A stretch of 64,000 nucleotides of DNA, from positions 1,612,001-1,676,000 of the forward strand of contig NZ_CP019067.1 of NCBI RefSeq assembly GCF_001989615.1, in the 5' to 3' direction. This DNA comes from Halorientalis sp. IM1011. Lineage in GTDB: Archaea > Halobacteriota > Halobacteria > Halobacteriales > Haloarculaceae. Shown here in pieces: positions 25,874 through 30,823 of the stretch. A program made the translations under genes and the position numbers. Position 1 is the first letter of the stretch, and each line of letters opens with the position of its first letter. A model generated the notes under the pieces. It had not been told where the DNA came from, searched no databases, and saw only the letters and a list, made by a program, of their open reading frames with translations.

Positions 25874-26416
25874 ATGAGCGATACAACCAACGATCCGATG
25901 GAGGACTGGAACGAGATGGTAGAGGAGATGAACGACGCGGTCGCGGACTCCGTCGAGCAGAACATGAAGGCCCAGGCGGCCTTCATGGAGTCCTGGGCCG
26001 AGGCCGTCGAGGGCTCGATGCCCGAGGAAGACGAAGTCGCCGAGGGCTTCGAGGGGTACAACCGCGCCTACGAGGTGTGGATGGACGCCTCCGAGAAGAT
26101 GTTCGAGCGCACGACCGACGCGGCCCAGGGCGAGGACGTCGACCCCTCGGAGATGCGCGACATCTGGCTCCAGTCGGCCAACGAGGCCTTCAAGGAAGTC
26201 ATGGGCACGTCCGCCTTCGCCGCCGCCAACGGCCAGCTGGTCGAGGCGATGATGGACATGCAGGAGGAGGCCGACGAGGTCACACAGGACACCATCCAGC
26301 AGATGGGGCTGCCGACACGTGACGACGTGATGGAGGTCGGCGAACGACTGGTCGAACTGGAGCGGCGTCAGCACGCCGTCGAGCAGAAGCTCGACGAGAT
26401 CCTCGAGGAACTATGA
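25874..26416 (+). CDS. phaE: PHA synthase subunit PhaE (haloarchaeal class III)
   Basis: A 180-residue subunit of the class III PHA synthase; it activates and is required for PhaC. It is highly acidic and helical. The C-terminal PhaE box is recognisable: [21 protein letters not shown] followed by a short coiled coil [15 protein letters not shown]. Haloarchaeal PhaE is shorter than bacterial PhaE (about 40 kDa), as here. ATG 25874 is used because of the box A 28 bases upstream. The ATGA overlap with phaC (26413-26416) indicates coupled translation, matching a 1:1 complex. Confidence 0.93.
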
Positions 26417-27858
26417 TCAACCCGTTCGCGAACGCACTGAACGCCCAGCGTGAGGGGTTCGAGGCGATGGCCGACGCCGTCGACAAGGCGAGCGTCGCGC
26501 CCGAACGGGCCGGGCCGCTGGCGAGCATCGAGGTCGGCGAGACCCCCAGCGAAGTCGTCTACACCGAGAACAAGCTGGAACTGCTCCACTACAAACCCGA
26601 GGACGCCGGCATCGAGGTGCCCGAGGAGGAGCAGTGTGACGTGCCGATCCTCATCGTCTACGCGCTGATCAACAAGCCGTACATCCTCGACCTCCAGCCC
26701 GAGCGGTCGGTCGTGCGCCGCCTGCTCGAAGCGGGCCACGACGTGTACCTCATCGACTGGAACGAACCGTCCCGGATGGACCAGTTCCTCACGCTCGACG
26801 ACTACGTCAACCGGTACATCCACAACTGCGTCGAGGAGGTCGCCGAGCGCTCCGGACAGGAGAAGATCAACATCCTGGGCTACTGCATGGGCGGTACCAT
26901 GACGGCGATGTACGCCGCGCTCCACCCCGAAAAAGTCAACGCGATGGCGCTGATGGCCGCCGGTCTCTACTTCGACGATACCGGTGGCGTCCTCGAGGAG
27001 TGGGGGAGCGACGAGTACTACGACCCCGAGGACGTGACCAGCGCGTTCGGGAACGTCCCGGCGGGGATGCTCGACGTCGGGTTCGCCCTGATGGATCCGG
27101 TCGACAACTTCGTCTCGAAGTACGTCCGGCTGTACGACAACCTCGAGAACGAGGACTTCGTCGAGAACTTCGCCCGGATGGAGCGCTGGCTGGACGAAGG
27201 GATCGACCTCGCCGGCGCGGCCTACGAGCAGTTCCTGGGCGACATCTACCAGGACAACAAGCTCTACGAGAACGAGCTGTACCTGGACGGGAAACACGTC
27301 GACGTCTCGAAGATCGACATGCCCCTGCTCCAGCTCATGGGCGAGTACGACCACCTCATCCCGGCGGCGGCGAGCAAGCCGTTCAACGACGTGGTCGGCT
27401 CCGACGACATCGAGACCATCGAGTACCCGACCGGCCACATCGGCCTGTCGGTCTCGGGGTCGTCTCACGAGGACGTCTGGCCCCGCGCCGCCGAGTGGTT
27501 CCACGAACAGAGCGACGACGTGGAACTGGAAGACGAGGCCACCGCGATCGAGATCGGCGACGAGGCCGACGCGGCCGTCGAGGCCGAGGAGTCCGACGCC
27601 GAGGAGTCTCCGGGCGAGGACACCGAAATAGAGGTCGAGACGACGGAGAGCGAGGACGGCGAACAGGCGACGCTCACCGACGAGAACGCCGAAAGTGTGG
27701 AGACGGTCGCCGGCATCGGCCCGACCTACGCCGAGCGACTCACCGCCGCCGGCATCGAGACGACCGCCGACCTGGCCGCGGCCGACGCCGCCACCGTCGC
27801 CGAGGCCGCCGAGGTCTCGGAGTCCCGCGCACGGGACTGGATCGATCAGGTCGCCTGA
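26413..27858 (+). CDS. phaC: PHA synthase catalytic subunit PhaC with C-terminal HhH domain
   Basis: A 481-residue class III polyester synthase. It polymerises (R)-3-hydroxyacyl-CoA on the granule surface. The alpha/beta hydrolase core has the lipase-like box GYCMGG with nucleophile Cys158, Asp313 in GEYDHLIP and His342 in TGHIGL. After the core there is an acidic linker (about 360-428, many Glu/Asp) and a ~50-residue C-terminal domain. That domain reads [19 protein letters not shown] then [16 protein letters not shown], a helix-hairpin-helix-like sequence. Haloarchaeal PhaC enzymes are known to carry long C-terminal extensions; the HhH reading here is my inference. Confidence 0.94.
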
Positions 27859-27894
27859 TTCCCACGACGGCAATTATCGCGCCGGTGTGCGAAC

Positions 27895-27906
27895 ATCCTT
27901 TTTGTT
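27895..27906 (+). promoter_or_regulatory. Box A before the PhaB-like reductase
   Basis: CCTTTTTGTTC, centred about 26 bases upstream of the ATG at 27927, matches the leaderless promoter pattern of this window and suggests the reductase has its own promoter downstream of phaC. Confidence 0.45.
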
Positions 27907-27926
27907 CCGCGGGTCGAACGTGACGT

Positions 27927-28667
27927 ATGCTCGACGGACAGACCTGCCTGGTCACTGGGAGTTCACGCGGCATCGGCCGCGGTATCGCGGAGGAACTGGG
28001 GCGACACGAGGCCGAGGTGGTGGTCAACTACCGGTCCTCGGAAGCGGCGGCGCACGAGACCGTCGATGCCATCGAGGACGCGGGTGGGACGGCCATCGCC
28101 GTCCAGGGTGACGTCGCCGATTACGACGAGGTGCAGGCCATGTGTGAGCGGGTCCACGACGCCTTCGGCCGGGTGGACGTGCTGGTGAACAACGCGGGGA
28201 TCACCATCGACAAGAAGTTCGAGCACATGACCAAGGAGGACTGGGAGACAGTGGTAGACGTGAACCTCGGCGGCGTCTTCAACTGCACGCACTGCCTGTT
28301 CGAGGACATCAAGGCGTCCGATCAGGGCCGACTGATCAACATCTCCTCGGTCGTGGGCCAGCAGGGCAACTACGGGCAGGCCAACTACGCGACCACCAAG
28401 TCCGGCCTCTTCGGCTTCACCCGGACGCTGGCGCTCGAACTCGCCTCGACGGGTTCGACCGCCAACTGCGTGGCACCCGGGTTCGTCAAGACCGACATGC
28501 TCGAAGACGTGCCCGAGCGCGTCCAGCAGAAGATTCTCGACCGGATTCCCCTCAACCGGTTCGCGGAGGTCGAGGACATCGCGGGGATCGTCCGCTTTCT
28601 CTCCAGTCGGGAGTCGGGCTACATGACCGGGCAGGTGCTGGCCGTCAACGGCGGCATGGAGTGGTGA
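27927..28667 (+). CDS. Short-chain reductase, acetoacetyl-CoA reductase (PhaB/FabG-like)
   Basis: A 246-residue SDR. The cofactor motif is TGSSRGIG (about residues 9-16), followed by NNAGIT, the catalytic Ser in INISSVVGQQGNYGQ and the YATTK pair (YxxxK). The C-terminal AVNGGMEW is typical of FabG/PhaB. The Arg/Asn after beta 2 (NYRSSEAA) suits NADPH. It probably reduces acetoacetyl-CoA to (R)-3-hydroxybutyryl-CoA for the adjacent PHA synthase, though FabG-like genes elsewhere in the genome could do the same. It is followed 1 base later by the GTG of the next gene. Confidence 0.9.
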   Translation: MLDGQTCLVTGSSRGIGRGIAEELGRHEAEVVVNYRSSEAAAHETVDAIEDAGGTAIAVQGDVADYDEVQAMCERVHDAFGRVDVLVNNAGITIDKKFEHMTKEDWETVVDVNLGGVFNCTHCLFEDIKASDQGRLINISSVVGQQGNYGQANYATTKSGLFGFTRTLALELASTGSTANCVAPGFVKTDMLEDVPERVQQKILDRIPLNRFAEVEDIAGIVRFLSSRESGYMTGQVLAVNGGMEW

Positions 28668-28668
28668 C

Positions 28669-29118
28669 GTGCGAGTCAGCGTGATCGGCGGTGGGGTGAT
28701 CGACGAGGCGACTGCGGCGACTGCCCGCGAGGTTGGTCGCGAACTCGGCGAGCGCGGCCACACCGTCGTCTGTGGCGGCCTCGGCGGGGTGATGGAAGCG
28801 GTCTGTGAAGGCACACGGGAGACGGGGGGCGACACCATCGGGATCGTCCCCGGCCCCGACCGCGAAGCGGCCAACGAGTACGTCGACACGGCCATCGCGA
28901 CGGACATGGGCAACGCCCGGAACGTCCTCGTGGCGCTGAACGGCGACGCGACCATCGCCATCGACGGATCGACGGGAACGCTCTCGGAGATCGGGCACGC
29001 GCTGGATTTCGGCCGGCCAGTCGCGGGGATCGACACACACGAGATCGAGGGGATCGAGGCTGTCGAATCGGCGGCCGCGGCGGTCGATCACGTGGAGTCG
29101 GCAGTGGGCGGGCGGTAG
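28669..29118 (+). CDS. TIGR00725/LOG-like Rossmann protein
   Basis: A 149-residue protein starting with GTG one base after the PhaB-like stop. The pattern VSVIGGGVI...GRELGERGHTVVCGGLGGVMEAVCEGTRETGG...GIVPGPDRE resembles the SLOG/LOG lysine-decarboxylase-like fold, in which a GGxxGxM[ED] loop and later Thr/Glu bind a nucleotide. The second motif is visible as AIDGSTGTLSEIGHAL. Members hydrolyse or bind nucleotide-like ligands; the exact role of TIGR00725 is unknown. It is probably co-transcribed with the reductase. Confidence 0.8.
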   Translation: MRVSVIGGGVIDEATAATAREVGRELGERGHTVVCGGLGGVMEAVCEGTRETGGDTIGIVPGPDREAANEYVDTAIATDMGNARNVLVALNGDATIAIDGSTGTLSEIGHALDFGRPVAGIDTHEIEGIEAVESAAAAVDHVESAVGGR

Positions 29119-29151
29119 CGGACAACGAGCACCCGCGGGGCGAAGTCGGTC

Positions 29152-29311
29152 GAAAGGCGCGTCGCGCCTTTCGTGATGACGAGAGAGCTTTGCTCTCTCG
29201 GACCACGCCGTGGTCCTTCCCGAGCGCGGCACCACCGCGCTCGGGCTTTCTCCCCAAGTTTTCGCGCAGGGGGTCGCCTATGGCGCCCCCTCTACGGAAA
29301 AAGTGGGTTTA
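29152..29311. repeat. Palindromic intergenic element, diverged copy E2
   Basis: Five consecutive hairpins: GAAAGGCGC/GCGCCTTTC (29152-29172), GAGAGAGC/GCTCTCTC (29181-29199), GGACCACG/CGTGGTCC (29200-29216), an 11-bp stem (29219-29245), then the linker GGGCTTTCTCCCCAAGTTTT, a hairpin at 29268-29291 and GGAAAAAGTGGGTTTA. The last linkers match E1 and E3 in order and spacing but with substitutions. As in E1, the final TTTA contains the stop codon of the minus-strand gene 29309-30823. Confidence 0.75.
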
Positions 29312-30823
29312 GAGCCAGTCGGCGAAGGAGCCTTCGATCAGCGTCTCGGTCTGGTTCTCGACGTAGCGGGCCTGCATGCCCCAGATGGCTTCGGTGAGGG
29401 GGACGCCGCGTTCGATCTGGCGTTCGACGAGGCCGTGTTTCCAGCGGGCGGGCGTCGTCCGGCGGTCGACGCGCTCCCGGAGGGGACGGATGTACCGGCG
29501 GGCCTCCTCGGTCGAGAGGCCGCGCAGTTCGAGGCCGTCGCGGGCGTACTCGAAGATCTCGCCGTAGATCTCGTCGATGGCTCCCGTCTCCGTCGCGTCG
29601 GCGGTGAGCCAGGTGAACTCCGCGTCGAGGCCGTCACAGACTGCGGCGTAGAAGTTGGCCTTTGCGGTCTGCCAGTCCAGGTTGCGGACGGGGTGTTCCC
29701 GGCGGGGCAGGCTCTCCATGAGGCCGCCGAACAGCGCCTGGAAGGCGACGGCGTCCCGGATGGTCGGTTGGGCGGCGAGCGGGCGGAACTCGATCCGGGC
29801 GTTGGCCGCCGACCGGGAGCCGCCGTCGAAGACGGGGCGGACCCACCGCCAGTAGGAGCCGTGCTTGTGCCGGAAGTGTCGGAAGCGGTCGTCGAAGCGC
29901 TGGCCGTCGGGCACGTCCATCGGGACGATGGTGCGGTCCTGTGCGATGTCGTGGATGGCGTCCTCGACGGTGTCGAAGTCGGGCGGGAAGCAGACCTTGG
30001 GGTCGCCCTCGCCGGTCGGCGGGTTGAGCACGTCCTCGAAGACGGTGATGCGGTTCTCCATCCAGGCGTCGGCGAGGATCTGCCCGGCGGGCACGTCGTC
30101 GTACATCTCCGGCGGGAAGAAGGGGGAGTTGGCACCGAGAGCGGCGAGCGGGCCGGCCACCCGGAGGGCGTAGGTGAAGTGCTCGGGCAGGTCGGGGGCG
30201 TGGGGGACCTGATAGTGGGGCTGGATCGAGGTGATGAGGCTCTCGGGCATCACCGTGTCGGCTTCCAGCGTGACGTGCGGGGCGTCGATCCGCAGGCCCG
30301 AGGGGTAGTCGGTGTTGGCCATCGTGTGGTAGCGCACCGAGTCGGACATGTTGGTCGCGATGCGAACGCCGTCCGCCTCGATGCTGTCACAGAGGTAGTC
30401 GGTGGCCGTCTCGCCGTTGGGCGGGACGGTCCACATGCCGTCGGCGACGAGGTGGATGTTCTCGCGGCCGACGGCTTCCTCGGCGGCGGCGACGTGGGCC
30501 TGCAGTTCGGCCTCCTGGGCTTCGAGCCCGTGCCGAGAGAGGGGAGCCGGCGAGGTCTGGAGTTCGGCGTTGTGGAGCCCGAGTTCCTTCTCGAAGCCGA
30601 TGCGGTCCAGGAGCTGGCGGGGGACCCGCATCAGGGCGTCGGTCCGGTCGTCGACGGCGTACAGCTCCTGTTCGAGCCCGATGATGGCCTGGGAGTTGTC
30701 GAAGGTGCCGTCGTACACCTCCTCGATCAGTTCCTCGGCTTCGGCCTCTGCGCGTTCCTGGAACTCCTCGGCGTCGACCGTGAGTGCCTCCCTGACCTGT
30801 GCCGCGAGCTCGGAGCCGGACAT
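29309..30823 (-). CDS. Glutamate-cysteine ligase family 2-like protein
   Basis: A 504-residue protein of the GCS2/carboxylate-amine ligase type. The signature IIGLEQELYAVDD (about residues 47-59) matches the G[LV]E.E start of that family. ELGLHNAELQTSPAPL and later SRSAANARIEFRPLAAQPTIRDAVAF fit the ATP-grasp-like core with acidic metal ligands. Haloarchaea make gamma-glutamylcysteine, but the well-characterised GshA is shorter, so the product is uncertain; an amide-bond ligase of another substrate is possible. The 3' end overlaps the last bases of repeat E2. Confidence 0.65.
   Translation of the reverse strand: MSGSELAAQVREALTVDAEEFQERAEAEAEELIEEVYDGTFDNSQAIIGLEQELYAVDDRTDALMRVPRQLLDRIGFEKELGLHNAELQTSPAPLSRHGLEAQEAELQAHVAAAEEAVGRENIHLVADGMWTVPPNGETATDYLCDSIEADGVRIATNMSDSVRYHTMANTDYPSGLRIDAPHVTLEADTVMPESLITSIQPHYQVPHAPDLPEHFTYALRVAGPLAALGANSPFFPPEMYDDVPAGQILADAWMENRITVFEDVLNPPTGEGDPKVCFPPDFDTVEDAIHDIAQDRTIVPMDVPDGQRFDDRFRHFRHKHGSYWRWVRPVFDGGSRSAANARIEFRPLAAQPTIRDAVAFQALFGGLMESLPRREHPVRNLDWQTAKANFYAAVCDGLDAEFTWLTADATETGAIDEIYGEIFEYARDGLELRGLSTEEARRYIRPLRERVDRRTTPARWKHGLVERQIERGVPLTEAIWGMQARYVENQTETLIEGSFADWL

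Follow-up and report, generated by a model that had tools for sequence, protein, structure and literature searches.

E2 fills the 190-bp gap (29119–29308) between two convergent haloarchaeal (Halorientalis-like) genes in the 64,000-nucleotide stretch of Halorientalis sp. IM1011 DNA considered here (hereafter, the window). The 3′ end of a TIGR00725 / LDcluster4 (SLOG) gene adjoins E2 on the plus strand, and the facing minus-strand gene encodes a conserved haloarchaeal protein of 504 aa, which has no Pfam or NCBIfam match and whose nearest named orthologues are from Halorientalis (79–95% identity). Just upstream, at 26413–28667, lie polyhydroxyalkanoate synthesis genes, including a class III PhaC and an acetoacetyl-CoA reductase type enzyme. 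The features at the locus are as follows:

28669–29118, plus strand: TIGR00725 / LDcluster4 (SLOG) gene
29127–29145, plus strand: left arm of the host hairpin, GAGCAYCC type, ending in ..GGCGAAG at the putative insertion point
29146–29205, plus strand: module A, a putative mobile double-hairpin element of 60 bp, TCGGTCGA...TCGGACCA, assigned by grammar match
29151–29173: hairpin 1 of module A, CGAAAGGCGC-GTC-GCGCCTTTCG, 10 bp perfect stem, loop of 3
29174–29179, plus strand: central linker of module A, TGATGA, 6 nt
29180–29200: hairpin 2 of module A, CGAGAGAGC-TTT-GCTCTCTCG, 9 bp perfect stem, loop of 3
~29200–29216: small fourth hairpin, GGACCACGCCGTGGTCC
29206–29217, plus strand: right arm of the host hairpin, CGCCGTGGTCCT
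29217–29311: module B, two hairpins around opposed T-runs
29219–29245: outer hairpin of module B, CCCGAGCGCGG-CACCA-CCGCGCTCGGG, 11 bp perfect stem, loop of 5
29246–29262, plus strand: T-run motif of module B for plus-strand transcripts, CTTTCTCCCCAAGTTTT
29263–29296: inner hairpin of module B, CAGGGGGTCGCC..GGCGCCCCCTC, with compensatory variation in relatives
29297–29311, minus strand: T-run of module B for the minus-strand gene, TAAACCCACTTTTTC on the minus strand, stop codon included
29309–30823, minus strand: 504-aa gene, its stop codon adjoining module B

The initial annotation of this locus had described a fixed order of linker, hairpin, and linker preceded by extra hairpins with near-perfect stems, and both points were borne out. 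The order runs from CTTTCTCCCCAAGTTTT (29246–29262) through a GC hairpin to GGAAAAAGTGGGTTTA (29296–29311), and an unbiased scan recovered the perfect hairpins at 29151–29173, 29180–29200, and 29219–29245 (stems of 10, 9, and 11 bp with small loops), while the whole window contains only 20 hairpins with perfect stems of at least 8 bp and loops of 3–8. Likewise, the last TTTA does hold the stop codon (TAA) of the minus-strand gene. The right arm of the host hairpin also forms, with the end of module A, a small chimeric hairpin (GGACCAC-GCC-GTGGTCC). Compared to shuffled sequences, the gap with its stop codon (29119–29311) folds exceptionally well on either strand (z of −6.5 and −7.3; 0 of 200 shuffles as good), and an Rfam scan of the window and of 29000–29400 returned no family at the gathering score and one chance match to RNase P (E 0.88). 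The suggested kinship of E2 to two further elements, E1 and E3, holds for a looser frame, TTTTTC[GC]CCCA-N1-2-TTTTT, which with up to 3 changes occurs at exactly three places in the window (6816, E1; 29247, E2; 58175, E3), but not for the exact linkers, which are single in the window (GGAAAAAGTGGGTTTA, one match with up to 3 mismatches allowed; CTTTCTCCCC, one exact match).

The description of E2 as one expanded copy did not survive. With BLAST, the gap matched 14 places in its own genome and gave matches in 28 of 39 related genomes, and these fell into two separate stretches of the query (~18–92 and ~103–191), which divides E2 into modules A and B. We put at about three in four the probability that E2 is a composite of a gene-end bidirectional terminator (module B) and an inserted, non-autonomous mobile double-hairpin element (module A), for which we infer movement as a single strand; the extra hairpins are thus a separate element, distributed across the class. 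Other copies of module A, detailed below, document its exact boundaries, the lack of target duplication, insertion between G and C with GCGNAG^C preferred, flanks complementary to each other, and stems that change in sequence yet remain paired.

Read from the neighboring gene, the stop codon and a few further bases lead into CCCACTTTTT, which in module B is followed by a GC hairpin, AAAAACTTGGGGAAAAA, and a second hairpin. The stop codon of a gene lies at −4 to +21 bases of the same module B end, in one orientation, at 26 of 28 loci (within 5 bases at 24 of the 28), and these 26 loci represent ~17 different gene ends, several of them orthologous. Hence, the earlier proposal that the element adjoins gene ends systematically applies to module B and not to the gained hairpins of module A, which at 47 loci were found in tandem (21), convergent (17), and divergent (3) settings, inside a gene (1), or at the locus edge (5), indicating that module A itself does not adjoin gene ends. 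Module B is most likely a bidirectional terminator. In E2, a T5 run begins 6 nt past the stop codon of the minus-strand gene and would end the transcripts of that gene; archaeal terminators have such a T-rich tract shortly after the gene 3′ end. Transcription from the opposite direction would terminate at the hairpin followed by the T-run motif, which is TTTTTCCCCAAGTTTTT in most copies and degenerate in E2. Work on Haloferax volcanii found a T5C sequence to terminate 95% of transcripts, and hairpins to lie upstream of 503 mapped ends (PMC7237163). Module B shares the T5C motif with these terminators yet differs from them, as they are described in that report, in that it is one particular sequence occurring repeatedly, its T-runs are opposed, it has both an inner and an outer hairpin, and it lies a few bases from the stop codon.

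Near-identical flanks (CCCACTTTTT and AAAAACTTGGGGAAAAA) at ~17 different gene ends could also point to a mobile module B with stop codons as its target, instead of a selected terminator, as could its absence, judged by eye, from the 10 orthologous E2 gaps. We consider this unlikely, given orthologous gene ends of several species keep module B with compensatory stem changes (27 cells with two-sided changes compared to 8.6 in shuffles, counted on the 25 aligned of 26 genus-level B loci, L109 being left out because the search had selected another place in it). Furthermore, different stop codons precede the copies, indicating that the stop is not carried by module B, and copies are also found behind tRNA genes. 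The only two module B loci that lack a neighboring stop codon are both from another family (G033), where six module B copies occur at five loci near tRNA genes; the end of one is 2 bases away from the 3′ end of a tRNA-Gly, and three lie ~100–210 bases behind tRNA-Leu genes in the same orientation. We did note by eye that two G033 copies (L116, L168) sit beside seemingly truncated tRNA-Gly 3′ ends with an intact tRNA-Gly near, as if the tRNA 3′ end and terminator had been duplicated by an integrating element.

Module A follows the grammar TCGTY-hairpin-TGATSA-hairpin-RACSA, or more fully TCGTYCGA, hairpin, TCGTGATSACGA, hairpin, TCGRACSA, with constant linkers, variable stems, and a length of 53–66 bp among the grammar matches. 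Pairing holds at 283 of 288 and 286 of 292 positions of the stems across 48 distinct elements; exchanging arms among the elements lowers these counts to 251 and 276 or fewer. An ungapped 19-row alignment, restricted to copies of equal length, had 99.5% of its cells paired and 7 pairs with two-sided changes, and none of 500 shuffles reached either value. The linkers are near-palindromic, one half-unit is present twice, the second time inverted (L071, L078, and L118 being symmetric or nearly so), and the hairpins may swap places relative to the linkers (L013 compared to L009). As each inverted half carries a foot and a hairpin, either single strand folds into two hairpins with the ends side by side; at the DNA level, module A folds with a z of −6.0, both strands equally well. 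A C/D-box reading of the TGATGA linker was dropped, as no D box was seen by eye. Two copies (L073, L088) have a double-hairpin insert of their own in the central linker, bordered left and right by TGATG, which may be a duplicated target.

That hairpin modules can be gained, as the initial annotation had supposed, is borne out by exact filled and empty sites of module A at other loci. In the IS200 tnpA gene, module A lies between GATGTGGAG and CGACAG in 4 haloarchaea, and these flanks are contiguous in 3 relatives; in tnpB, it lies between GATGGGG and CCTC in 2 genomes, with the flanks contiguous in 3 others. A site in an IS605-type right end (TCGGGCGTAG|CCCGA) is empty in the genome under study (L052) and filled in two other genomes (L060, L063), and a site in another hairpin element (CAG|CCC) is likewise empty in the genome under study (L017) and filled in G006 (L146). 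All four are exact insertions of 53–61 bp without target duplication, and the boundaries of those in tnpA and tnpB are not shiftable. Module A is found in both orientations relative to genes and occurs antisense or in frame inside transposase genes; in Haloferax larsenii, it is in frame in TnpA (150 compared to 132 residues), with the 18 extra residues shortly before DHVH. The hairpin modules are therefore gained by insertion, and the part adjoining gene ends is module B. Recent independent jumps were not seen among 8 groups of identical copies within genomes (19 loci), the flanks of which are related save for one right flank.

Related arrangements were noted at several of these loci. Two more double-hairpin insertions, 51 and 56 bp long and with ends unlike those of module A, lie in the tnpB 3′ region (L118:1250-1750, L142:301-730), indicating that there are several families of elements of this kind. 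At L017 and L146–L148, a double-hairpin array flanked left and right by ACGTT splits the T-run motif CCCACGTTTTTG, and in G006 module A is nested inside this array. At L052, two hairpins are inserted into the loop of the right-end palindrome of the tnpB element, at the place where L060 and L063 have module A.

Given its presence in IS605 genes and ends, module A might instead be a terminal-only derivative (PATE), that is, the fused ends of an IS605-type transposon. The PATEs of Haloquadratum are related to IS605-type near-terminal palindromes, lack target duplication, and can be ~52 bp (PMC3119063). However, PATEs are defined in that study as having no terminal inverted repeats, whereas module A has inverted ends (TCGTY / RACSA); its hairpins gave no more than weak BLAST matches to the 16 tnpB loci of its own genome, and the readable tnpB right ends look different by eye (GAATCCTCGCGC..GAGGATGTCA type). 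An origin of this kind is quite improbable in our assessment.

Where species share a gene end, the T-run frame of module B stays constant, and its T-runs may enclose one hairpin (L099, L112) or a nested array with module A (L015 and L076, respectively). Such differences between orthologous arrays, together with stems that vary freely with pairing kept and identical copies that share related flanks, would suit an E2 that is as a whole one terminator or 3′-end structure, its hairpins multiplied by replication slippage and template switching and module A immobile. The TCGTY/TGATSA/RACSA linkers, however, are common to the whole class, and local multiplication cannot give clean insertions of module A into tnpA and tnpB coding sequence; the exact filled and empty sites have already largely refuted this explanation, to which we assign little credence. 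Lastly, module A could be a structured RNA under conservation, with a UGAUGA linker in a three-way junction, that is expressed from 3′ untranslated regions and has spread through its RNA function. This is highly improbable: despite conserved linkers, strongly covarying stems, and a position often behind genes, it has no Rfam family, and such an RNA is at odds with the presence in both gene orientations, the equal folding of the strands, the near-palindromic linkers, and the antisense and in-frame sites in transposase genes.

Returning to module A as an inserted mobile element, we analyzed its target in 29 non-redundant copies (31 copies, with 2 same-site duplicates dropped). The base before module A was G in 28 of 29 and the base after was C in 29 of 29, noting that the search pattern slightly favors G and C at the ends; the −4 base was G in 22 and the −5 base C in 21, which together indicate GCGNAG^C as the preferred target. 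The G and C are part of the target, since the empty tnpA and tnpB sites hold both bases. One pair of copies (L161, L162) has A after the element. A strict in-loop folding test of the joined flanks, made first, showed no enrichment (6 of 31, compared to 9.9 expected from re-pairing), although folding energy was enriched. The base counts above and a flank-pairing test came afterwards; in the latter, the joined flanks had a pairing sum of 117, a value that none of 2000 re-pairings reached (highest, 107), and stems of at least 6 bp formed at only 9 of the 29 sites, compared to at most 6 on re-pairing. GC-GNA-GC sequences form very stable DNA mini-hairpins. Extraordinarily stable hairpins of this sort are treated in PMC10527192. 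These properties suggest, rather than prove, that the target of module A is folded single-stranded DNA.

In E2, module A sits between GGCGAAG and CGCC, and the joined flanks can form a GGCG-AAG-CGCC hairpin. Module A would have entered without target duplication between the G and C in the loop of this pre-existing hairpin (GGCG-AAG^CGCC), beside the terminator, and hairpin-rich gene ends would then serve as landing sites that tolerate it. In a comparison of orthologous gene ends, the check that had been proposed for this locus, module A was present at 0 of 10 orthologous loci, nine of which lack such an array by eye, and none of the loci compared provided a nucleotide-level filled/empty pair for the site in E2 itself. 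At the orthologous gap, Halorientalis persicus (L032) has a different hairpin array without module A in which the host hairpin type is kept, namely an uninterrupted GAGCAYCC-type hairpin with different arms, 8 nt past the same stop codon, as in E2.

The module A grammar was matched in 138 of 194 genomes of the haloarchaeal class (reversed pattern, 0), a count that is slightly high given a few matches are without hairpins (e.g., one locus each in G202 and G040). In a sample of the phylum, it occurred in 27 of 33 members of the class and in none of the 163 genomes from outside it. The E2 gap also has matches on haloarchaeal plasmids from ten genera (nine to module A, one to module B). The phage collection searched gave no match, and 0 viral contigs had the exact half-element pattern. 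Regarding a mobilizing enzyme, Y1_Tnp (PF01797) is present in 101 of 138 genomes with module A and in 31 of 56 without, an association (Fisher p 0.018, Spearman 0.28) that ignores kinship and is too weak to name the enzyme. The match is absent from 37 of the 138, including genomes with 12–17 module A matches, and 12 genomes with at least 5 module A matches lack it. Among Y1 enzymes, only the IS200 subclass has been reported from Archaea, according to the survey in PMC6006769. An IS200-type (Y1 HUH) TnpA acting in trans is possibly the mobilizing enzyme, and folded single-stranded module A would then move at the replication fork into single-stranded mini-hairpins. More broadly, and tentatively, the copies may constitute a class-wide family of folded ssDNA that inserts at GC-GNA-G^C in mini-hairpin loops and nests hairpins at gene ends and in IS605 elements without a RAYT, via an IS200 TnpA in trans or some hairpin-loop nuclease, with stems exchanged from a small vocabulary and linkers kept. 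Such a tiny mobile unit, entering existing hairpins while the terminator frame persists, would explain the hairpin stacking at some haloarchaeal gene ends, and annotators gain a defined grammar for a repeat absent from Rfam.

Several known systems share features with module A, of which a literature search covering openly searchable papers returned no description. Rickettsia palindromic elements are likewise palindromic mobile units found in frame in coding genes, but they are longer, bacterial, and formed of a single palindrome. Mitochondrial double-hairpin elements, reportedly first described from Allomyces, lack, to our knowledge, both a linker grammar shared across a class and a fixed G^C target in hairpin loops. 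Those of fungal and other mitochondrial DNA resemble module A in their two hairpins, apparent mobility, and presence also in genes, though the genomes are unrelated to the hosts of module A (PMC2800124).

The small mobile repeats (SMRs) of Haloquadratum walsbyi, SMR-A and SMR-B, are like module A transposase-free, with terminal inverted repeats and no target duplication, and are often inserted in IS605-type elements and PATE palindromes (PMC3119063). Module A similarly shows no target duplication and insertion in IS605-type tnpA, tnpB, and a right end. The terminal repeats of SMRs are unrelated to transposons, and the module A counterparts are the inverted ends TCGTY / RACSA, with weak matches to the tnpB loci of its own genome. 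As described in that report, SMRs are 80–110 bp long and form high-identity families in one species; module A is 53–66 bp, class-wide, and linker-defined with variable stems.

The REPINs (BIMEs), inverted REP doublets linked to RAYT Y1 transposases, are likewise short, non-autonomous units of two inverted hairpin-bearing halves with compensatory stem changes and extragenic abundance, and a single-stranded Y1 mechanism has been suggested for them, as it is here for module A (PMC3116915, PMC6006769). Two inverted copies of one hairpin-bearing half (TCGTYCGA-hairpin-TCGTGAT / inverse) are indeed present in module A; a RAYT gene is not a constant companion, as PF01797 is absent from the 37 genomes noted above and a match does not separate RAYT from IS200. 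Compared to REPINs as those sources describe them, module A is 53–66 bp and enters hairpin loops and transposase genes. Its foot is TCGTY or TGGTT, giving with the host G (28 of 29) a junction of G|TCG or G|TGG that lies 2 nt from the stem; the REPIN foot is GT[AG]G. By analogy, module A appears to work like a REPIN or a small mobile repeat and is a candidate member of such a class, and with its exact boundaries, target rule, and in-frame insertions, the movement of a REPIN-like unit without a known RAYT becomes testable in Haloferax.
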